In this document: one piece after another, positions 3,001 to 52,990 of the stretch
Layout of the letters: each line of letters begins with the position of its first letter
Numbering within the stretch: position 1 is the first letter of the stretch
Source: Polytrichum commune
Taxonomy: Eukaryota > Streptophyta > Polytrichopsida > Polytrichales > Polytrichaceae
Assembly (NCBI GenBank): GCA_950295325.1
Contig: OX485806.1
Location: forward strand, 13,516,001-13,580,000
Length of the DNA: 64,000 nucleotides
Direction: 5' to 3'
Program-made: the position numbers and the translations under genes
The notes under the pieces: model-generated
Databases searched by the model: none
The model's input: only the letters and a program-made list of their open reading frames with translations
What the model was told of the DNA's origin: nothing

Positions 3001-6000
3001 AATTCAAATAACATGTACTTTTGTGCTTCCAAATCCCTTGTCAATCGCTAACAAGAACCCGGTTTAAAAAATTAAAATCCAATTCAATAGTGTTTAATAA
3101 TGTCAAGTGTTAAAAGTGACATGTTTAGGACCATCTACGTTACGCCACTATATATTGAACTTGTGGAGAATTATTAGTGTACCACCTTTTCGTGATCCAT
3201 GAGGCCTTCGTGCTCGTCAAAGACTCATGCAAATGAACTAACGTGTGCATCCGTTGTTCAATAACTTTTGAGGTAACTGCGTCCTTGGCCACCAACTCCT
3301 TGAAAGACTGCACGGTCTTCTCGGTGCTTGCAATGTATTTCTGCAATATGAATGCATTGAGCCCATGAGTTGCTAGAAACTACACTAAACATAGTGTTAT
3401 TTTGTGTCATATAATGGTATCTTATGTCACCATAGTAACTTTTGTAATGACACTTCTTATCAAAAATAAGTTTACAAATACTGTCATCCCAACTTATTTT
3501 GGTTCGTCCACTTGTGCCATATTCTGCATTTTGATTTCTATAATGAATACATTATCATGAATGATTGCAATTTGGATGAAAAATCACTTAGTAAGTGACA
3601 AAAATTGCACCATCGTAAATCTATAATGTCCAATTTTGTTAACAAAGGATGACAAACAATGTTGGGTTGACATTTGGTATTGTTGGTGGCATTACACATG
3701 TCACTAGTAGAAAACTATGCCCAAAAGAACCGTAGTCGAAATCAGCTGCAGTTCTATTGACCAGCCTAATATGCAGTCATTAAACGATTACAAATTGTTG
3801 TTTCTCGGTTTGCGACTACAATTTTGAACATTTTGGGACTTGTAGTATATCGTTGGAAAGGTGTTTTTGAGATCTTTCCAACGGTATATTACATGTCCCA
3901 CAAAAAATCCTAAACATTCATTTGCTAAACCAAAAAAACAAATTTGCAGTTGTTTAGTGACAACAAATCAGGCTGGTCAAAAGAACCACAACCGATTTCG
4001 GCTGCGGATTTTTTTTTGGCATAGTTTTCTACTGATGTGTGGCTTACAATTAGTCTCGGGGAGGTGACTATCGGAATTTTAGAAACCACGTGAGATAAAA
4101 AAACAAGATCAATTTAATTCGTTGAGGGTAAAAATTATAAAGTCGTTAGATCTACCATAGCATTGGAAATATGTCCCCTACATGATTATTTGTAAAATAG
4201 GGTGGTGAATAATTCCTTCATTTTAGTAATCAGTAGAAAAAATAAGGTTATAGATATTGGATCCCCCTAAAAGTGTGTTGTAGGATCAATACAATAATTA
4301 TGGCTTTTGTATTTAGCTTTCTTGTATTTGAATGCAATTTTTTTTTGGAGTAGGTAGTTGTTCAAAATTCTATGTCTTGTCACAACAGATTGTAATTCTT
4401 GTTTTGTTCTATCTGTGTTTACAACTTGTCTATGTTAGCTTGTACTTATTGTTATCTCCATGTTTATTGGTAACACTTTAACTAGTACCACATAGTTGAT
4501 TTTGCAACGCTATAGTATTCCATCCACTATTTGGTACTTGTACAATTTATAAAAAAAAATTGGTGCCAAAAATTAGCCTCTCTAAATAATTACAAATAAA
4601 TATAGGGTGCTAAAAAATATGTCAAAGTAGATTTATATCTACAAATAGGGCAAGAAAAAATATTGAGAGGTGCATAAATATCCCCCCATTAAATACCCCA
4701 TTATCGCACGTGGTTACAAAGCGTTAGGGGGTGTGATCGCCCTATGCAATTAGTATTGAGCAAGACAAATAGAATTGGTGAAAATGAATACAATATTTAG
4801 TGTACTAAACAAATGTAAACTCAAAAGTCAAGCATTGGTTCCCTTGGATTAGTTTGGCATTATTAGAAGCTCCATCTACCACGAGTAGGCATTAAGCCAT
4901 TCCCCCACCCTCTACTTCCATGTATCAACTCATCAACTCTTCTAACAACCCCAAAATCTTTGACAACCTGCGGGTATTTTTACAACTATAAAGAAAATAC
5001 ATTGAAAATTTGATGTGATGTTAATTTTTAAGCCTATGACTAGGTGAGTGACTCATGTATTATTAGAGAAGGTCTTGTTGTGTTGTTCACCGCATGTGTG
5101 ATCTCCATTTGGCGCTCTTGCTCCTCTATTTTTGCTTCCAATTGGATCCGAAGGATGTTATACTCCTCAATGTTATTATTCTACAAAGAATGAGGAAAAA
5201 ACAAGAAGTTGAGAATGTATGTGACAAGCTTATGTGGAAAGCTTCAACCCTTAAATGACTAACTTGGGTTTCTTTATAGCGTATAGATGAAGTGCAATAC
5301 TGCACTTGAAAAGAGAGAGGGGACAAATTGACCTAAGAATGATCCCAATACCTTGATCTCTTCTCGATTAGACTCATATTCTTGTCGTTTTTCATCCAAG
5401 GCTTCGTCAAAATCGGCCTTCATTATTGCCATCATATCCCTCATTTCCTGGACTCATCCACTATGCATATGTTTAGAAATGTTTCTAGCCACATTACACT
5501 TTGATTCATTATTTGCATCATTATTTACAACATGTCAACACACAATTAGCTAAAACTCTCTTAATTTAAGGCACGTATGTAATAAACATGGACATTGATA
5601 TGTTATTCAGGCAAATTGAATGCCCCGTCCAATAGTGTCAATATCTTTGTTTTTGACTTGCGCATCCAAAACCATTGCCACTTTTACCATGCCATTTGAT
5701 TGTTATAACGTGGCACTCATCAAACCTACTTAACAAACAACCTAGAAACCAATACTACTTAAGCAAGGTATGTGGCTATCATACCCCCATTAAAGCTTGT
5801 AGAAAAAAATGGCATCTTTGATAGAGAAAATATGTCAAGGAGGGTTGACAATACGAGCACCCAACTCGTTATTGCGTACAATGATATATTTTTCTATGAT
5901 TTGTGAAAGGTAAAGCTAGAGATGGTAGTCTTTATGGAAAGAGCATGACACTCCAACAAATAAGTCCTAATGATAATGCCCTGAAGCAAGTGGACTATAA

Positions 6001-9000
6001 AAGACCATACCTCCATATTGGAGGCAATAGCCTTCAAATTGCCACTAAAGCATGATGGACACCGCATGGAGCGGATCCAAAGCCTAGCTGCACAATCCAT
6101 GCAATAAGGCTTCATTTTGGAATGTTTCCGCAAGCTACTTAGTTGTGATAAGTTTTTTCATGCTTTAAGGAAAAGTTAGACAAAAAACTTCAAAAATCCT
6201 AAATTCATATCAAATTTCAATGTCGTAACATTGGACTCTATAATCTCACAAAACTTCATGATGATCATTAAATCTCTTACAAGAACATTGCAACATTACA
6301 GTTGGTGATAAGCATGTTCATCACAAATCAATACAATGTGCAATTTTCTATAAACATTAGCATTTGAACACTCCGATTGCAGAAACTTTGACTTATAGAA
6401 AATTATTAGCAAGAGTCTAAATGTTGGAGTGTCACCTCAAGAAATTAGGATCTCGGCACCAATTTAGTGCTAGGCTTGTTTATCACCTATGGGATTGTCC
6501 CTTACATTATGAACTCTAAAAGAAGAAATGTCTAAGAGTTCAAGTCCTCATTTCTAATACATGTATGGTGCCAAACATAAGCTAAGGTAAACGTGCTCAT
6601 TTTAGTTACTTAATTAATTGGACACTTATATTAGGAAAGGTTTGTGGTTAGTTGTGGATCTAAAAATGCATGTTCCCAAAATGGATTATACTAAGTGCTC
6701 AAATCTTGTTTATTGTTTTGGAAAAATACTCAACATAATTGGGGGGACCTATATGATAATTTACCAAGAAAACAAATCTTCACTTTGATAATGAACAAAA
6801 TATTCATATGAGCTTTAGAATTTATGAGAATAGCTACAACCTCGAATCAAAAATGCTATTCATCTTGAACTAATTGAATGTTCAATATCTTTGATGAAAT
6901 GCACCAATAGAGAAAACTAAATAAAATAACCATTCAAGACTCATCTACCTTGCTCAATAACGTTATGGAAGAGGAGCGTGGTGGGTAGATTATATTGATG
7001 ATAACATGAAGACATCCAATCAACGACCATGCGTTAAAAGCACACAACTGAACTTGAATATGAGGAGGATTGATTGAAGTTTTGTGTAAGTTACCGTTTT
7101 TTGTTCATCGTGCTTCCTATTCAATTGGTCTCGTTCATTCATAAAACTATCATTCAAATTCTTGAGGTGCTCCTGGAAAGTGTCCTCCATTGTCTGCAAA
7201 ACCCCACCTTTTGAGTCCAAAATTTGAGTTAAGTGGGCTTAATATGGAATTGAACATTTGAACATTTGAAAATTGGTTTTTAATGTAGAGTACGTATTTC
7301 TTGAAAAAAATATGCTATCTTCTAAATGCTAAAATTGCTCAAGATGCAACCCTCTATAGTAGGTTCGTCTACCTTACTCTTAGGCACCCCCTTCCACGTG
7401 TGACTCCAGGTATGGAGATGTTGCTGTTGTTGTAATTTAACATCTTGGCAATGATAACAGTGTTCAGTCGAAAAAAGGAAGAAAAAGCAGAGAAGCAGTA
7501 TTGAATCCTAAAGCATTCTTCAAAGCCATGTGAGTGTGCTCTGTTCATTAATATTTAGGAATGTTTGGAATTATCCTACCACATAAATTTCTGTTAACTC
7601 AAAAAGCGACCCAGTAATTGAGATGCTTCTCTAGATTAAAAAGGTATATATATATATATCCCAAGGCCACTGTTGATACCAGATTCAGGTGAAGTCCATG
7701 CACAAAAACGATCCCTCCTAGCAAATACTATTGGAGGATGCAAGTCCGGGGAAAGAACGAGTAAGTATTTCAACATCCAAGAATGTTTAAATAAATGTCT
7801 CCTTCAACACTGCCCACCCAGAGAGTCCAACGCCTACACTAAATATTGTATTTAGTGTCACTAATTCTACTTGTCTTGATCAATACTAATTGTAAACTGC
7901 CCGTGTAGTGTCACTAACACTAAATGTGAACCTAACATTATTTGTCACTCCTCGTAAAAAAAACCTTGGGAAATATAGATTTACAATGTTGCATTTACTG
8001 TCACTTACTGAGCGGTTTTTCAATCGAAATCTTAATCATCCATGACAATATTTCAACACAAAAAATGTTACAAAGTAGATTATACCAAACTTTGTTGAAC
8101 AATAATTGACATAGATTCCATCCAGGTTTCAATCATCCATGACAGTACTTGTAAATTAATTCATAAGAAGCGTCATTAGAAAAGTTATCACAATGACATA
8201 AAAAATTGTATGACACTAAATGCAATATTTAGTGTAGTACACTCTAATCCATTGACTAGTTATGTGAGTCTGCCTTTGGGCTCACATATGAGAGAAACAA
8301 TATGGATCCATGGTCAAAGAGTTTGTCTTATGTCTTTGTCTCCCCCAACCATGCTAGACAAATCAAGAGAGAGAAAATCTCAGGGGGGGGGCAGTGTGTT
8401 AAAAAGTGAAGGATATAGGTGCGAACAACCACTATTTTATAGGGGGGTATTACTTTCAATTCTCTTCTTTTTTTCACATGCTATCATTATGTAAATTTCT
8501 ACTTTGGGTCAATAGAAAAATGGCTTGCATTACTTATAATTTCAAATTACCTATTATTCCATACCCTATAGTACTTTAAAGATGTCCAGTGCCATTTTTG
8601 ATACCCTATATTACTCTTAAGCCCAATTATAATTTTTTGCTCCCATGTTTTAAAAATACCCTATCATTTGTTCGCACATATATTGCTACTCCAACCAATG
8701 ACTACCCCCCCCCCCCCGAGGAGAAAATTATCATATATGAGCGTGCCTCTCATCCATTCAACATAAAGACTTGGCCCCCTTGTAGGGTTGTTGCCAATCC
8801 ATCTCAACTACCGTCAAGGTCTTTAAAGATAATCTTGGTGTCAAATCAACTTAAAAAAGAAACCTCTGGAATGCATATTATTTCACGGCTTTTATGTTGG
8901 ATGAATGAGAGGCTATTATGTTCCCTCTCTCCAACAAATCATCGTGCATTCTACACAACATTCTATACCAGTGAGCAGGAGTTTTGTGGACTTAGGTTTT

Positions 9001-18569: not shown

Positions 18570-18910
18570 ATTGTGTGTCTCAAGAGCTATCTACATTAAA
18601 GACCACATATATAAGGTAGCAGCACCTTAAACCAAGAAGTTAGGGTATTTGGCACACATGTGGTAGTTGTATGAATCAGATTTTTTTTTATTCCTAGGTA
18701 GGTAAAAAGAAACCAGATGTACTGCAAACCCCCCCCCCCCCAAATATCGAAATAAATACAATTTTTTGTAGTGAAAATTTTGTTGTCACCCAAAACCGTA
18801 TTTTTTTTAGGGGGGGGGTGTTTACATGATGATCATTCTCATAATCAATATGTACTTATTATGCAAGATTTCAAAGTGTTGGTTATAGCACCCTCTACCT
18901 TATTGTTGAC
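18570..18910 (-). repeat. Arm of inverted repeat pair with poly-C/poly-G tracts
   Basis: The inverse complement matches 21270-21625 along most of its length: gcataataagtacat, a C run, acggttttgggtg, ccaaatacc(c/t)taacttc, ttggtt-aaggtgc. It contains a 14-C run (about 18729-18742) and a 9-G run near 18811. Two copies in inverted orientation lie about 2.4 kb apart. Confidence 0.6.
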
Positions 18911-26801: not shown

Positions 26802-29800
26802 TTAGTCGAGTGCAACCAGGGCTTGTTTCTTTTCTAATTTCCTTTTGTTTAGGGTTATGGGTGTTAGGTATCTTATAGCAATTTGGGAGAAGGATTCCAT
26901 TAGTTTATGGATTTTGGAGTTGGGGATTTCTAGGTCTTGGAGGAGTTTAACAAATTTTCTATGTATAGTGCCCCTTATTCCTACTATCATTATAAGGGAT
27001 GGTAATACTATCCACCCTAGTTAGGATAGGAGAGGGTGGAGAATGGCATATTGATCAAGTTTTTGGTCGGTGGCCACTATGAGGAATCTATCATTGCAGT
27101 AAGTGAATTCAAATGCTTGTACTTTGAGGTTTGAGTTGGGTGTGAAGGGTGGTTTATATGTAGGTGGGGCTCCTAGTATGCATAATGTATTGGGTCTAAG
27201 TCAAGCTGGGCATTTACATCTTGGTAGATAGCATGTGTATGGGAATAGCCATGTTGGTATGGTGTTGTCAAGTGTGCGGTCGCTAATGTTGCCAGTATTT
27301 ATTAGGGTAAAGTATGGGTTGTGGGGTGGGCTAGTAGTGTGTTCATTAGTGTGTCGGTTTGTCCTTAGATTGTTTATGTGTTTATTTGTGCAACATGATA
27401 GTAGGTGGAGGCATGTGTCAGTATGGTGGGACGTGCCTAGGTTACATGTTGGGGATATATCTTGTTTGAGGATGTGTGTTTTTTTTGGTAGTTCCCTAAA
27501 TATCTTTCCGTATCTAAATTTGAAGGTTTGTGTTATTTGTGCATCAGTAATCCAAGGGCATCCCATCATAGATTTTATCATTTTATGTGTGTGTTTGTGT
27601 TGGAGAGTCATTTGTCTATATAGGGTATTGTATTTTTTGCAGGGGATACGAGTGCACTTATGTACTTTTTTTAGTGTGGTTTTTAGGTTGCAGACTAAGC
27701 CATCGTGTTGTGTGGATGTTGGGGGGATAGACAGTTGGAAAGGTGTTTCTAGAATATAATGCATCGTTGTTATGCTCTTTGTTTGACCAATTTATCAACC
27801 TTATCATTTGCAACAATGTTTGTGGGCTCTAACTTTGCAGATGGTGATATTGTGGTGGGAGGTTTTTAGTGTATATATTATTCGGATTATGAAGAGCTTA
27901 TCTAGGTTGTTGTATTGGGAGGATGGTTTCTTATGTTGTTGAGGCTATTTGTGAATATGAATGTATTTATTGGGAGCATTTTGGTGTGCTCAACAATGAT
28001 CATGAGTGCTTATAATTATGCTTTGAGAATATTGGGGTATCTAGGTAGGCGAGGAACAATTTGACTTGTAGTGGCCCATTGAAAACTCCAGCTCTTGCAA
28101 TATTGCCTTTTCTTTCTTCATGTGCTGGTGTGAATGAGCCATCCATATAGTAGGCTTGGGCGGGTGGGAAGCATAGGGGGAGGATTGATGGTACAGTTGG
28201 TGGGAGAGGGGGGGTTGGTGGGGGGGGGGGGGTTGAGCTATGTGCCATGCTTTAGGGATTTTGATGTATGTTCTATTGGTATGGATGGTGGGTGGAGGAG
28301 TGTTGTAGGGAGTTGTTGGAGGAAGGTGCATGTGTGGGAGAGTATTAGAATGGAGCTCAGGGGGGGAGGGGGGGGGGGTAGTCATTGGTTGGAGTAGCAA
28401 TATACGTGCGAACAAATGATAGGGTATTTTAAAAACATGGGGGCAAAAAATTATAATTGGACTTAAGAGTAATATAGGGTATCAAAAATGGCATTGGACA
28501 TCTTTAAAGTACTATATGGTATGGAATAATAGGTAATTTGGAATTATAAGTAATGCAAGCCATTTTTCTATTAACCCAAAGTAGAAATTTACATAATGAT
28601 AGCATGTGAAAAAAAGAAGAGAATTGAAAGTAATACCCCCCTATAAAATAGTGGTTGTTCGCACCTATATCCTTCACTTTTTAACACACTGCCCCCCCCC
28701 CCCCCCCCCCCGCCCGAGGAATGGAGATGAGTGGGGGTTCTTTGTTGTTGTAGTATGCGGGAAGGACAATGTTTATCTATATTCTAAAGTGAGGGGTGGG
28801 TTAGTAAGTATAGGAGTTACATCTCTTTCATATGGGAAGTGATAATGTGATAATTGCATGGGACATGTGAGTGAATTGGAGAAATATGAGTGTCTAATTT
28901 GGAAGGTTTGTATGAGGTTGTCTAGATTGATGATGGGAGTGTGTGGTGCTTATGGATGAGGGGGTTGGTGGGTGGTTCACGTCTTGGGAGTGATTTGATG
29001 TATTGGTTAATGAGGAGGAGGATTTCCATGGTAGAGTCTTGTATAGGTGGGGAGAAGGTGTGGTTCTCGATGGTTTTATAGAGTGAGTAACTTTCCCATA
29101 GCCATGTTGAACTTCCAAGTGGTATAGCGGTTTGGTAGCTCTCCATGTCGTCGTGTATTTGGGCCACGGGGTGCGTATTTGTACTGTAGGTGATCATGTG
29201 GCGATGATGTCTTTGTATGGGTTACATTTTTTTAGGTTGGAAGGTGCGGTGAGGGATGTCAAGGTCGGGGCAAACATTTTTCTGTCGTGTTTTTGTTGGG
29301 GTTTTAGGATGTTGAGTGATTTTATTGATTATTTTTTAAAAAAAAAAATATTTATGTTTTGTTGTTTTATTTGTGTGTGAGTTTTGTGACAAGTTATAGA
29401 TTGTGTTCGTAGAGGATGGTGTTGGGGTTTGATAATAATGTTTGTGTGATCCATTTGGAGTGGTTGGTGTGTGGTGTTTGCAATGGCAGTGAAATTTATG
29501 TGTATGTTGCTTGGCTCCCATTTTTTTTTCAAGCGTGGATTTAAAGCCAGAGATGTATGAAATGGGGGTACGTAGGGGTTGCAGGGTTGTGTTATATCTT
29601 GGATGTGAAGTAGAGTTTGGGTTCGTGGGAGGGGGTGGGGGTGGGGGTGATGGTGTGCATTGTGTGTGGGGTGGTGTGTAGTATGTGTTTGGTGGGAAGA
29701 CCATAGTGGCTTGTAAAAGTGCATTTTTCAATATTATGGATTTGGTTTGGTATTTATCTTGGAATTCTTTAATGATGAGTATGCGTGTGTTGGTGCAATT

Positions 29801-38754: not shown

Positions 38755-39814
38755 GTGGTTTGTGTTCTTCATCTTCATAACGTCCCTCTTTGCATTGTCT
38801 TTGTCTTCATCATTTGTTTTGCAAATTGTAGATGCATTGAAATGAACCAAATCAAAAAAATGGTCAAAGTCAGATCTTGTCTCTATAGATTTTGGAAATA
38901 TCAAATTGTGCAATGTGAAGTACTTGCCTTCATCTTTTGATGGTGATGTTATATTTGTGTGGCCACCACTGCCAGATCCAATACCTCGATCATATAGACG
39001 GGAGATGGATGGGATGGACAAGTTTTATGATGGCCATGCATGGTGCACCACAAATGCCACAATTATTCAAAATGATATTGGCTTAGCATTTTGTCATTCT
39101 ATATGTGCCGGGCATTTTGAATACTTGAAAGGCTTTTGTGACTATCTACATCGTAATGTTGGTGTCCATAATTTTAGCTAGTGGGTCAAATCCAATGTTG
39201 TACTATTTGTTGTGGGGAGTAAGGTATCCAAACAAATCTAAATTGGAAAATAAGGTATGTCCTTCCACACTGATCTGTATTGTTGTATGCAATGCTTATG
39301 TCCTTTCCACAAGTCATGGGATGTCTAGGGCATGTATTCATCTAGGGGTGTATGATCACGTCGTGAGTCTTTGGACATTACATACCAATGTGTGGCCAAT
39401 GAAGTGATAACAACACCAACTGCAACCAAAACTCAACTATTATGATGGCAACGAGTAATCAATTTTTTGGCATACTACCTTCTAAAATCTTCATCCTGGG
39501 GTGAGTACCTTCGTATAGAAGGGGCTTCATTAGAAGTCATTATGGACACTTTCACAACACTAGCTTTGCCTAATTGTTGTAGATTTGTATATGGAGTAAA
39601 GTATATTTGTGCGAAGTGGAATGGGTACTATGGACAATATCATGACGCTCAAGAACCACTATGGTTTCAAGTTTGTCCATGGGAGTCGGTTCCCTAGGCA
39701 ATCCAAAGACAAAGTGTTTGTTTTCAAGATGTCAATAGACCTTCCTAGGAGTGGAGTGGATTTGGTGAAGTGTATGCAAGTTGGAGGGTATATGGAGAAT
39801 TTGTGGATCATGTT

Positions 39815-40168
39815 CTCGGGGGGGGGGGGGGGCAGTGTGTTAAAAAGTTAAGGATATAGGTGCGAACAACCACTATTTTATAGGGGGATATTACTTTCAA
39901 TTCTCTTCTTTTTTTCACATGCTATCATTATGTAAATTTCTACTTTGGGTTAATAGAAAAATGGCTTGCATTACTTATAATTCCAAATTACCTATTATTC
40001 CATACCCTATGGTACTTTAAAGATGTCCAGTGCCATTTTTGATACCCTATATTACTCTTAAGTCCATTTATAATTTTTAGCCCCCATGTTTTTAAAATAC
40101 CCTATCATTTGTTCGCACATATATTGCTACTCCAACCAATGACTACCCCCCCCCCCCCCCCCCCCGAG
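39815..40168 (+). mobile_element. G-run/C-run MITE, copy 3
   Basis: 354 bp from CTC plus a 15-G run to a 20-C run plus GAG. Perfect 8-bp duplication ATCATGTT at 39807-39814 and 40169-40176. Same orientation and nearly the same interior as copy 1. It splits the SWIM-type pseudogene. Confidence 0.93.
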
Positions 40169-41297
40169 ATCATGTTTGACCACATGAAGCGGCTAAAAGA
40201 TTGGACAACGGTGGTGTGTTGTGTGTATGATTGAAATATTGTAAGGTGCTTAAATTGCATGTTGTGATATACAATTAGAGGATGGAGTAGCTCAAATTTG
40301 TTTTGGGAGAACTTGAACATTGTTATGATAGAGGATGACGGACCAGATGAAATTTTAAGGGGTTCATGGTAGACAATGCACAAGCCAATTGCAATGATGT
40401 GAGAAAAAATTATGAGGATGGAGATCCAAGGCTCTTCATGATTGGTTGGGAGAGCACATGTCTTTCCACTTGTTTGCCACCTTGGATAAGGTGACACAAA
40501 AGTATATCAAGCCATCATTGCAATTTAAAACACAAACGATTTAACAAAGGCTACAAGGACGCCAAAACAATGGATGATGCATATACAAAATATCATGCAA
40601 ATCATTCTTGGTGGTTGTCATCTGATGCTGCCACAAAGAGGGGTTGCTTGGATTTTTGGAGTGGTTGGAATTTTGGCATTTATGATATAAACAATAGAGA
40701 GGTCACATGTTGTTGGTAAGTAGTTGTTCATTTTTGTGTTTGGTTATTGAAATGTATTCATTGTTTGTTGTTGATAGGTTGTATCCTACGTGGTGTTTTG
40801 TGTTGGGCATGTAATCCTAACAAGAATCATGTATTCAAGATATGACCATAGACAAACATTCAGAGATACCAACTTGCAACCTTGCCAAAATGTTGCATAA
40901 CAAATGGTTGCAACAATTGGGGAACAAGATAACTTGCCTATACGAAGTCATAGTGGATGATTTGATTTGGGCATTCATGCAAATTGCAAATGTTAGGGCG
41001 TGTCTTAAAAGATTTCTAGTGAAATTAAAGGTTGCCACCATAAGTGAAATCCAAGGCTACTAGCAGATGCCATGAGGTCTTATCCAAGGGCAAAAGATCT
41101 CAACACCCAAGATTGTGCATTGGAGGGGTCATACTTGTTTGGTTCTACCAAATGGAAACTAGATTTGCCACCTGGTGCTAAATGTAACTCCCATCGACTT
41201 GATAAAGATTTCTATTCCATTCCTTGCCCTACCACTCAAACAACTTGTCAACACATAAAGGAATCATTGAATGCAATAGAGCATGGTGTGGTGCATA

Positions 41298-41618: not shown

Positions 41619-41870
41619 ATACCACATTGGTGCTTGAGATGGACCACCTTCCTTCACAATGGCATATTGCATGATTGCCACCCAACTCTACCACAAGGTA
41701 TTGGGCAATGCATGCCAACAAATGGATTTTGTGCGATGCGAAAGTTGGAACATGCAAATATGTCATCCCTGCACCAATGTACAAAGGTTGAAGAAAAAAT
41801 TCCACTCTACCAACAATGCGGAGTATGAATTTTGGTTATGCCCTAATGACATCATATGTTGCAACAATAA

Positions 41871-42252
41871 GGGCCGGTTCACACTATGGCCAAACTTCAA
41901 GAGGAGAAGCATTTGGACCTATGAAAATGCAGAAATGTCCAAAGTCCGTTCTCTCGGCCTTCACACTAGAGGTCGAAGTCCAAAGGACGTCGCCTCCAAA
42001 AGAGCCTAGGTGGCAACACTTTTAGGAAGTTATGGTGCCAAGAGTTCGGCCTCTCGAGCAAAGTTTGGGTCAAGCAAAATGCTCGACCCAAACTTCCGTC
42101 GAGAGGACAAACTTTTTTTTTCATTAAAATATTCAAAATCTGATATCTGATTATTATTATTTTTTTCAGCCCAAAGGCTTCTCCTCTCGACATAGTTTGG
42201 TCCAGAAAAGTGACGCTTCTCCTCTCGACTTGGGCATAGTGTGAACCGGCCC
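41871..42252. mobile_element. Tourist-type (PIF/Harbinger) MITE
   Basis: 382 bp. Near-perfect inverted ends GGGCCGGTTCACACTATG, flanked by TAA on both sides (41868-41870 and 42253-42255). A central hairpin pairs aagtttgggtc (from 42062) with gacccaaactt (to 42096). Same end type as 24516 and 32678. It interrupts the SWIM-type pseudogene just upstream of its PNTRLVK block. Confidence 0.92.
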
Positions 42253-42872
42253 TAAGAAGTATGTTTTGGATTGGCCTATGGTACCCAACACTCGGCTTGT
42301 GAAGATAAGTACGAATCTCTCTATGGAGGAGGTGTTGGCACTTAAAGACGCTGGATTCCAATTCCAACAGAAGGGAGCACGTTCACCTCTTCGTAGGCTA
42401 TTAGCAATTGTGACACTCCCCATCCCTTGGTCACATTTTTTTGTGCCTCCAAACCTATACTTCCATCCAACTTTAAGATTTTCCAAGACAATTCAACGGA
42501 ATCCAACAACACCAACGGCCGATCGCAAAAACATGGAAGAGTGCCAAACTCATGGACGGATACTATGTTGTTGGAGTGATGGCCATTCCTTACCCAAGTT
42601 TTGGAGTTATCATCAACATTGTCTCAAGGGAGGATAATGCCTATCATGTAACAATTGGCGGCATCCCACAATGCACTTGCTTGAACTTTACGAAGACGTT
42701 CTCTATGGCTTTGGGAAAGAAAGGGAAATGGGTGTACTTCAAACACCTTTACTATGTGTTCAAACTTTTATGCAAGGTGGATTATGACAATGAAAAAATC
42801 ATTTTTGTTGCAATGTACACCTACAAAGAGGTCATGCGATTACTCGAGTTAATTGGCATTGTCATGTGCTAA

Positions 42873-50428: not shown

Positions 50429-52990
50429 ATGGCACACGATAGGGTTAAATTGAATGTAGGGGGCAAGTACTTTGTGACTTCGCGAACGACCCTTGCAAAT
50501 GCTGGGAGGGGATCTATGTTAGCAGCTGTAATTGATGAGAATTGGCAGCTCGTGCCCGACGTGGTGTCAACTGAGCTCTTTATAGACAGAAATCCGGCAT
50601 ACTTTTCAGTTCTTTTGGATCTTCTGCGGACCGGTGAACTTCATATACCTCCAGGTAAGATTAATTTGTCGAAGAAGGCTTCCTGTAACAGTTTTTATTG
50701 ATTGGATAATAGAACGGTTGATTGCTGCTGATATGCTTGCTCTTTCTAGCAGTGCAACTGACGGATGCAGGGTTTGGTGCAGCTTGTCATTCTTTGTTCC
50801 ATGTGACATTTCTTCATTTCATCATGCCAATTTGAAGCGGATTTTAGTTTGACACACCTCCATTCTTAGGTCACAATTTGTTTCAACATGTTAAATCATT
50901 GTAGGATGTCACAGAAACCTCACTTTAAGTGTGATCTACCAGGTATGTCGGAGAAACCTCTATACCGAGAAGCAGAGTACTATGGCATACTGGATCATGT
51001 AAAGGCAGCCCGGAAAGGTCCTTTGAATGGAAACCGTCTTGATTGCATTGCATCTATAAGTGGGCGAGCAACTGGAGATGGAACTGCCATTCGAGCATCC
51101 CCAGATGGTGGATGCTGTGTTGCCCATGGGAGCATGGTACATGTTTATGATTGGTTAATGGAGGAACAAGTACCTCTCACGTTGGACTATGTAAATGTGA
51201 ACGACGTAGGGTTTCTCAGTCCAAACCGTGTTGTAATATGCACTTGTGAGCGAGGAGACCGTGCTGGTGGAATGGCATCATTCAACATCAAGACTGGAAA
51301 AATTGAACATAAGTTTCAGGTACAGCAGATGTATATCCTTGCTCGATACAGCATAGGCTGCTCTTTGGTTGTGCTACAATTTGTGATTGTTGCAGCCATA
51401 AGTCCTTCTCTATGGTGCTTCGGAATGGTATTATTGTTTTGAATTCTGTAGTATGCTAACAGCTGTGTTACGAGTAGTGAAACAGGTCTCTATTGCTGTT
51501 GTTACATTCTTAAGTTAGTTTTACATGTCCTGTATCTTATTTTTCAGATCTTTATACCTCACTTGCTTATTGTGCATCATTCTCTTTAGAGTTTTAAAAC
51601 AACTGCCTCGACCTTGGGCCCAAGAATTTCTTTTCTGGGCATCATGTAGCATTCTCTTAGGACTAGTATCTATCCCTTGTGTACAATCTTCATGTTTCTG
51701 AACAGACTAAACTTCTGGGCAGTACAAAATATCTAACACTGATGCCTTTAGCAGAGGTTTCTTCGTAAGCTGCTGGTATGCCATATATTACTTCATGTTG
51801 ACAGTGATTCTTTGCTTCTTGAAGGTTGTCCACGATGGAGAGTCAAAGAATTTCACAGCAGGGGCGCTCGCAAGCAGCGATAAACATGTGTATGCTAGCT
51901 GTAGAGGTAGGAGTTATGAATATGGCATTGGAACGTGGGATCAAAATACAGGGCAACAAGCCAACTTTCTCTATGAGGGTCCTGGGCGACCATTAGGTGA
52001 TGCATGCAAACTTCAGTGGCTACCTCGTACAAATCTTCTGCTTGTGGCCAACCTATTTCCCAGCAGCGACCACAGTTTCATAAGCCTTCTAGATTTTCGA
52101 ACGAAAGGAAAGGTAAATCCATGCTCATATTGCAGTTATTCTCTTTAGACCACATGTTTTAATTTTAGGCAACTGAATAGTGAGTAGAACCAGTCGAGCA
52201 TTGGGTGGCCACGAGGCAGGTTCATCCAATGGCCATTATCTAACGTGTGAATGGTAGAAAGCACATATGATTTTATACACATCATTGATAAACTTTGGAT
52301 ACAATCTGTTGGACTATATGACATTTCCCTGAATGAGGTGGATTTGAAAGAATGTGTGGTTCACCCTAAAATTCTTCTGTGGAGGGCATGATCTCTTGCT
52401 GATGGAAAGGGCATGTATAGGTCTGCACAACAGTCAGACTCTGGAGTTATTTTTCGTTTCAATTTAAAAGTTTTTATAAATAATTTTTAGGATTGAGCTG
52501 TGCATACTGAATATTTGTTGTTTTTCGAATTTTATAGGTGTGGTCATGGACAGATGCAGCCCAACGAGTTGTGGGCGACGAGAAAATCGTAATGGATGCA
52601 GTGGCAATGGAAGAGTGCTCTACAGTGTGTGTTGTCAACCAATTTGACTATCTTGGGTTTATAGACATGAGAGCCAGCAACCAAGGTGTAAGGTGGAGTC
52701 ACAAATACCAACCCAGCAAGATCTGTGAGTCGGAGGAACGATGCTACTCAAAGCTCGCCTGTAGTGGCTCCCAGCTCTTCTCCAGCAAAAATGACAGCGT
52801 GTATGTCTTCTGTAGTCCTGACTGGGATGCTGCCCGGGGCGTTCAAACTGCGAGGTTACGGCAAAAAGAGGGTGGTGCCATCAGTGATATCTCAGTGGGT
52901 GGGGACCGCCTTTTCGTGCTTCACAATGAGGAGGATGTGTTTGATGTATGGGAAACCCCAGGGCCCTCAAACATCATAGAGAATTACTAG
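50429..52990 (+). CDS. BTB/POZ domain protein with WD40/YVTN-like propeller (plant KCTD-like)
   Basis: Likely substrate adaptor of Cullin-3 ubiquitin ligases, as proposed for plant BTB proteins. Four exons join with GT/AG sites in one frame: 50429-50654, 50943-51319, 51825-52112, 52538-52990, giving 447 residues. The N-terminal T1-type BTB domain (residues about 5-76) has VKLNVGGKYF, TTLANAGR, FIDRNPAYFSVLLDLLRTGE; it ends across intron 1, and exon 2 resumes with MSEKPLYREAEYYGILDHV. The rest matches the Arabidopsis At2g24240/At4g30940 type as I remember it: GDGTAIRASPDGGCCVAHGS, YDWLMEEQVPLTLDYVNVND, YASCRGRSYEYGIGTWDQ, KLQWLPRTNLLLVANLFPSS, FISLLDFR, VWSWTDAAQ, CVVNQFDYLGFIDMR and the C-terminal GGDRLFVLHNEEDVFDVWET. 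Length fits the family (about 440). The ATG at 50429 has a good context (ctcATGG) and is the first of the BTB domain. A long leader with a tandem duplication precedes it. Confidence 0.93.

Follow-up and report, generated by a model that had tools for sequence, protein, structure and literature searches.

Results and discussion

Family-1 elements in the window

The window analysed is a 64,000-nucleotide stretch of the Polytrichum commune genome (C4:13516001-13580000 of 407.8 Mb; contigs C1-C7 span 42-78 Mb). It contains three copies of a MITE family, here termed family 1, each with its flanking target duplications (Table 1). Frames within 50870-52990 match PF25279, a family of plant proteins that takes its name from an Arabidopsis gene. 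Positions 41638-42869 are a fragment of a very abundant element encoding a SWIM-like protein (150 scored matches of 1844 candidates). A 455-aa open frame is present in many of the scored matches of this element, and a further frame, of 742 aa, is common to the copies L100 and L101; at E 0.01 Pfam gives no match for either.

A first-pass annotation described the three copies as starting with CTC(A/G) and a G-run, ending with a C-run and GAG, and flanked by perfect 8-bp duplications, and this holds for all three. It also took the G- and C-runs for the termini, which needs correction. The element terminates in CTC/GAG, with the runs further in; the G-run of family 1 is located between CTC and the body. 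The remaining 62.9 kb of the window contain five further G/C runs of at least 8, where about one is expected under a first-order model. Long runs (9-13) outside the family-1 elements are found at 18729, 21390, 28220 and 46702.

Table 1. Family-1 elements, their parts and a related stretch, in window positions
Feature	Positions	Strand	Remarks
Degenerate 42-bp stretch	4701..4742	-	83-86% identity to one end of a related family
Left target duplication	8371..8378	.	GAGAAAAT; flank of copy 8379-8720
Family-1 MITE copy	8379..8720	+	CTCA + G9 ... C13 + GAG
Right target duplication	8721..8728	.	GAGAAAAT; flank of copy 8379-8720
Left target duplication	28348..28355	.	GAATGGAG; flank of copy 28356-28718
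Family-1 MITE copy	28356..28718	-	Opposite orientation; one interrupting base per run
Right target duplication	28719..28726	.	GAATGGAG; flank of copy 28356-28718
Left target duplication	39807..39814	.	ATCATGTT; flank of copy 39815-40168
Family-1 MITE copy	39815..40168	+	CTC 39815-39817, G15 39818-39832, body 39833-40145, C20 40146-40165, GAG 40166-40168
Inner motif	39860..39869	+	GTGCGAACAA, a putative transposase site; 27 bp inward from the G-run
Inner motif, inverted copy	40109..40118	-	GTGCGAACAA; 27 bp inside the C-run
Right target duplication	40169..40176	.	ATCATGTT; flank of copy 39815-40168

Copy number, target duplications and age

Family 1 is a genuine, abundant and fairly young family of non-autonomous DNA elements. 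A genome-wide search with copy 39815 as the query yielded 1609 first-look candidates, and the 40 scored matches among them have 97-100% identity. The exact 5' end, G8 followed by CAGTGTGTTAAAAAGT, occurs 843 times in the genome and its reversed control does not occur. A sample of 40 copies (the C1 sample) was drawn from the 100 listed of these 843 matches, all of them on contig C1, by taking alternate places among the first 40 and 20 hand-picked places further along. A common 313-bp body is present in all 40 except L118 with its nested element, L115 with an insertion nested close to the 3' end and L121 with an internal deletion; 37 of the 40 are therefore full length. Another 18 places on C1 were read in part, and 17 of them run on into the MITE body, the exception being L127. 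The mean divergence of the 37 full-length copies from their consensus is 2.2%, which bears out the earlier proposal of fairly recent movement. The assignment to an abundant MITE family is likewise upheld by the body without a transposase frame, the number of exact 5' ends and the homogeneity of the copies. L115 and L126 together show an insertion, about 1.56 kb long, within a family-1 copy; its ends are GTGAGCCC / GTCAGCCC, and ATACCCT stands on either side.

The first-pass annotation named a majority of copies without 8-bp duplications, or with other endpoints, as evidence against the family. When the boundaries were free to move by a few bases, 34 of the 40 C1 copies have a perfect 8-bp duplication, three have one mismatch and three have no duplication (best 2, 3 and 4 mismatches), and the family stands. 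Both ends are unchanged CTC(A)/(T)GAG in 27 of the 34 copies with a perfect duplication and one is changed in the other 7. A fixed boundary expression was also applied to every row with a body of at least 200 bp (70 rows); this gave 54 perfect duplications, 4 with one mismatch, 1 with five mismatches and 11 rows unmatched by the expression. By chance, a perfect 8-mer would arise with a probability of 1.5e-5 when the boundaries are fixed and of about 0.5% per copy when shifts are allowed (hand estimate). The CTCA/TGAG variants are consistent with CpG decay of CTCG/CGAG.

The joined flanks of 58 of the 70 rows were compared with all sequence collected in the analysis, and uninterrupted related (paralogous) sites were found for 8 copies. 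The best of these is L127, a related repeat that serves as the empty site of L007. It matches the joined L007 flanks at 95.6% identity and contains GATTGTCT once; in L007, GATTGTCT is present on both sides of the element, the right one with a single base changed. The empty site of window copy 39815 is found in L100 at 76% identity; therefore, this copy appears to be inserted in an old copy of the abundant SWIM element. The remaining six empty sites have identities of 74-86%.

Related families with the same end

The element nested in L118 is inserted into a family-1 body, is flanked by an 8-bp repeat with one mismatch and was the entry point to a set of related families. The pattern CTCGGGG-N24..40-CGTGCGATAAAA has 500 genomic matches and its control has none. 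As in family 1, the related families have ends composed of CTC, a spacer and GTGCGATAAAA, and they make 8-bp duplications. The inner motif GTGCGA(AC/TA)AA lies 24-27 bp beyond the spacer across these families. Ten relatives were fetched at 700 bp. Both ends were located in five of them (L145, L146, L151, L152 and L153, with two changes in one end of L152), all with a perfect 8-bp duplication. Three more relatives, L155, L156 and L076 (one end changed to CCC), also have perfect 8-bp duplications.

Relative b (L155, L156) is about 1.3 kb long and has a conserved 120-aa exon, of which the genome contains hundreds of copies. The exon has no stop in the matched stretch in 118 of the 150 listed copies (hand count; 991 candidates). 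It has no Pfam match, and its best PDB match has an E value of 0.093. In L148 the ends of family b enclose another interior, which is richer in GC and resembles a gene fragment.

Spacer length and the origin of the G-run

Spacers were tallied in the 100 listed of the 500 CTCGGGG-type matches, a pattern that covers family-b spacers up to 20 nt. Four families have interrupted spacers: family a, mostly GGGGGGTT (53 listed copies), family c, GGGGAGGT (4 copies), family d, GGGGGGTG (4 copies), and family e, GGGGCAAT or GGGGCGAT (2 copies). The spacer is exactly 8 nt in 62 of these 63 listed copies, whereas in the G-only family b it is 8 nt in 11 of 35 listed copies (8 of them pure G8) and ranges from 7 to 20. 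Two odd elements among the listed matches have spacers of 11 (pure) and 12 (interrupted).

Run statistics of family 1 were taken from the C1 sample, since the best 40 copies are biased toward the G15/C20 of the query. Because the C1 sample was selected for 8 G at the 5' end, the lower edge was taken from the 3' runs and from a search permitting spacers of 5-8. The search gave 158 matches; among the 100 listed, 82 have a spacer of 8 and 18 a spacer of 7 (hand count), and none has 5 or 6 nt. The unselected 3' run is at least 8 in 35 of the 37 full-length C1 copies. The lengths of the 5' and 3' runs are uncorrelated (rho 0.13, p 0.44), and in the same sample run length has no relation to divergence and nearest neighbours are not seen to share it (fraction 0.27). 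Among the 69 copies of a mixed sample, nearest neighbours do share the 5' run length (fraction 0.013); since this is absent in the C1 sample, it is attributed to the selection of best-scoring copies.

Family 1 is one of several related families, and its G-run is probably the 8-nt spacer turned pure G and drifting by slippage. The terminal repeat of these families consists of CTC and an 8-nt G-rich spacer, with the inner motif further in, and the spacer consists solely of G in family 1 and relative b. Pure G8 would be long enough for replication slippage, and the two runs of each copy would drift separately, up to about 22 G. Independent variation of the runs and a floor at 7-8 would be expected because a pure G octamer would exceed the slippage threshold. 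Slippage would also account for the length contrast between G-only and interrupted spacers.

Some observations count against this reading. The interrupted spacer of L153 measures 12 nt, and interruptions are also present in two long spacers of family b. In addition, slippage after insertion would predict that younger copies are nearer to G8, but no relation to divergence is seen; therefore, slippage after insertion fits only if it is fast. Since run length is unrelated to divergence, the long runs may already have been present when the copies jumped.

The first-pass annotation suggested that the G-runs could form G-quadruplexes and pair with the C-runs, and that this may matter for transposition. 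A role of this kind is improbable. As a single strand, the window copy has a better fold than its shuffles (z -4.7), with the runs paired, but such a fold is expected from any inverted repeat. Runs of at least 8 are present at both ends in nearly all sampled copies; however, the relatives with interrupted 8-nt spacers make equal 8-bp duplications. A single-run quadruplex needs a minimum of about 15 G, and at least 15 G are present at the 5' end in only 9 of the 37 full-length C1 copies. Since the relatives with interrupted spacers insert in the same way, a G-quadruplex role is unsupported. It is likewise improbable that run lengths vary mainly because of homopolymer errors in sequencing or assembly. 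Such runs are hardest to call when pure, and the lengths come from the assembly rather than the underlying reads, but the spread from 8 to 22 far exceeds a miscall of one or two bases, the lower limit at 7-8 is sharp and further G/C runs of 9-13 are present in the window.

The transposase

In the most likely mechanism, the transposase of a related autonomous element would act in trans, bind the inner motif GTGCGA as its putative site, cut at CTC/GAG and insert at 8-bp-staggered cuts. The first-pass annotation proposed to look for an autonomous element that shares the family-1 ends; an end search, subsets of the hAT loci and a boundary of the weaker PF10551 elements revealed none. The search for the same ends with another interior gave four matches, all of them indel variants of the 3' end of the MITE itself; this is a weak search, as its filter passes only about one third of unrelated interiors. 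The KDZ transposase domain PF18758 has no match in the genome, and the control genomes likewise gave none.

Several elements were rejected as partners. The SWIM-protein element (L100/L101) has a 3' boundary, the only one seen, that reads ...CTTCCCTC. The weak PF10551 elements L096 and L099 have one visible boundary, which is not CTC-G. In L081 the CCCGAG is no terminus, as the sequence runs on beyond it in a second copy.

A low-copy Mutator-like element (MULE) with the same ends is a tentative candidate for moving the clade, which comprises family 1 and its relatives; relative b and the variants would then be derivatives carrying gene-like pieces. Four PF10551 matches (C1:49788781, C2:56927885, C4:26000873 and C7:35309582) score 79-89 bits, and the next scores 56 bits. 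A diverged copy (81%) of the relative b exon lies 1.55 kb from a MULE match (C2:56927885 versus C2:56929710). The chance of such adjacency is about 0.6% for the 150 listed exon copies and about 4% for the 991 candidates (hand estimate). The Mutator-like transposase beside this exon copy (C2:56927885-56930033) is a circumstantial lead on the partner. The exchanged interior of L148 also fits a MULE, which is able to capture genes and makes duplications of 7-12 bp (PMC9168764).

The 8 bp of the clade fall within this range, and its relatives resemble Mutator-like MITEs and Pack-MULEs in their exon-like or swapped interiors. However, the clade has 8 bp in every located pair, while the published MULE has 9-bp duplications in 267 of 278 cases and 8 bp in 10 (PMC9168764). 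The termini of the clade are CTC...GAG, compared with GGG...CCC for the published MULE and GGG...CCC or GAG... for Mutator-like MITEs and Pack-MULEs. There is also no clade end within 10 kb of the MULE match on C1 among the CTCGGGG-type matches listed; the nearest listed one (C1:49773820) is about 15 kb off and faces away.

A hAT partner is rather unlikely. The 8-bp duplication suggests hAT, as the first-pass annotation recognised, and the resident hATs make 8-bp duplications, are numerous (150 scored of 1060 candidates) and include one that is intact (L103). Family 1 resembles plant hAT-type MITEs in being short, non-coding, present in high copy number and flanked by 8-bp duplications. The start consensus of hATs is YARNG, however, and the family-1 terminus CTCGG does not fit it. 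Family 1 also differs in having no nTnnnnAn target preference: the resident hATs agree with it at 22 of 26 positions (13 duplications) compared with 42 of 108 for family 1 (Fisher p 2.4e-5, with the two positions per site treated as independent). In 30 hAT loci (about 1.5 kb on each side) and 15 downstream flanks, of 150 listed, there are no CTC-G ends belonging to the hATs. A plain hAT assignment is therefore unsupported, since the termini and target preference differ from those of hATs in the same genome.

Two hATs were rejected individually as partners: the 420-aa hAT has the ends CAGTGTTGG, that of L103 has the ends CAGAGCCC, and neither has CTC-G ends of its own. The L103 element (L103:410-5456) is 5047 bp long with the target duplication GCATGTAG and a 698-aa open frame, and short relatives with its type of ends are found at other loci. 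L094 and L095 are two copies, 99.2% identical, of a 5.8-kb hAT with the ends CAGTGTTGGACTGTTAT and 8-bp duplications. L102 has a 1084-aa frame with a hAT dimerisation match, flanked by two similar C-rich repeat-like stretches. The 3.2-kb hAT loci L067 and L068 (C4:54396348 and C4:54437896) are identical, lie about 41 kb from each other in opposite orientation and may represent an inverted duplication.

Cut-and-paste transposases are usually assumed to need fixed end spacing. It is conceivable, if doubtful, that the transposase of the clade tolerates a distance from CTC to GTGCGA that varies by more than 10 bases, with a drifting microsatellite between its two contact points.

Implications

The family-1 tract resembles poly-G mononucleotide microsatellites in being an uninterrupted tract of about 8 units whose length varies between copies. 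It differs from them in its place within the terminal repeat, three bases from the cut site and at both ends. No description of such ends was found in the top-ranked papers of the open-licence literature.

Terminal homopolymers alone are unfit for defining a transposon superfamily. If copies with long runs still jump, they would show flexibility in the recognition of ends by the transposase. The clade is a natural experiment in which the same position of the terminal repeat is G-only or interrupted within one genome, and it measures the length and purity at which poly-G turns unstable in vivo.
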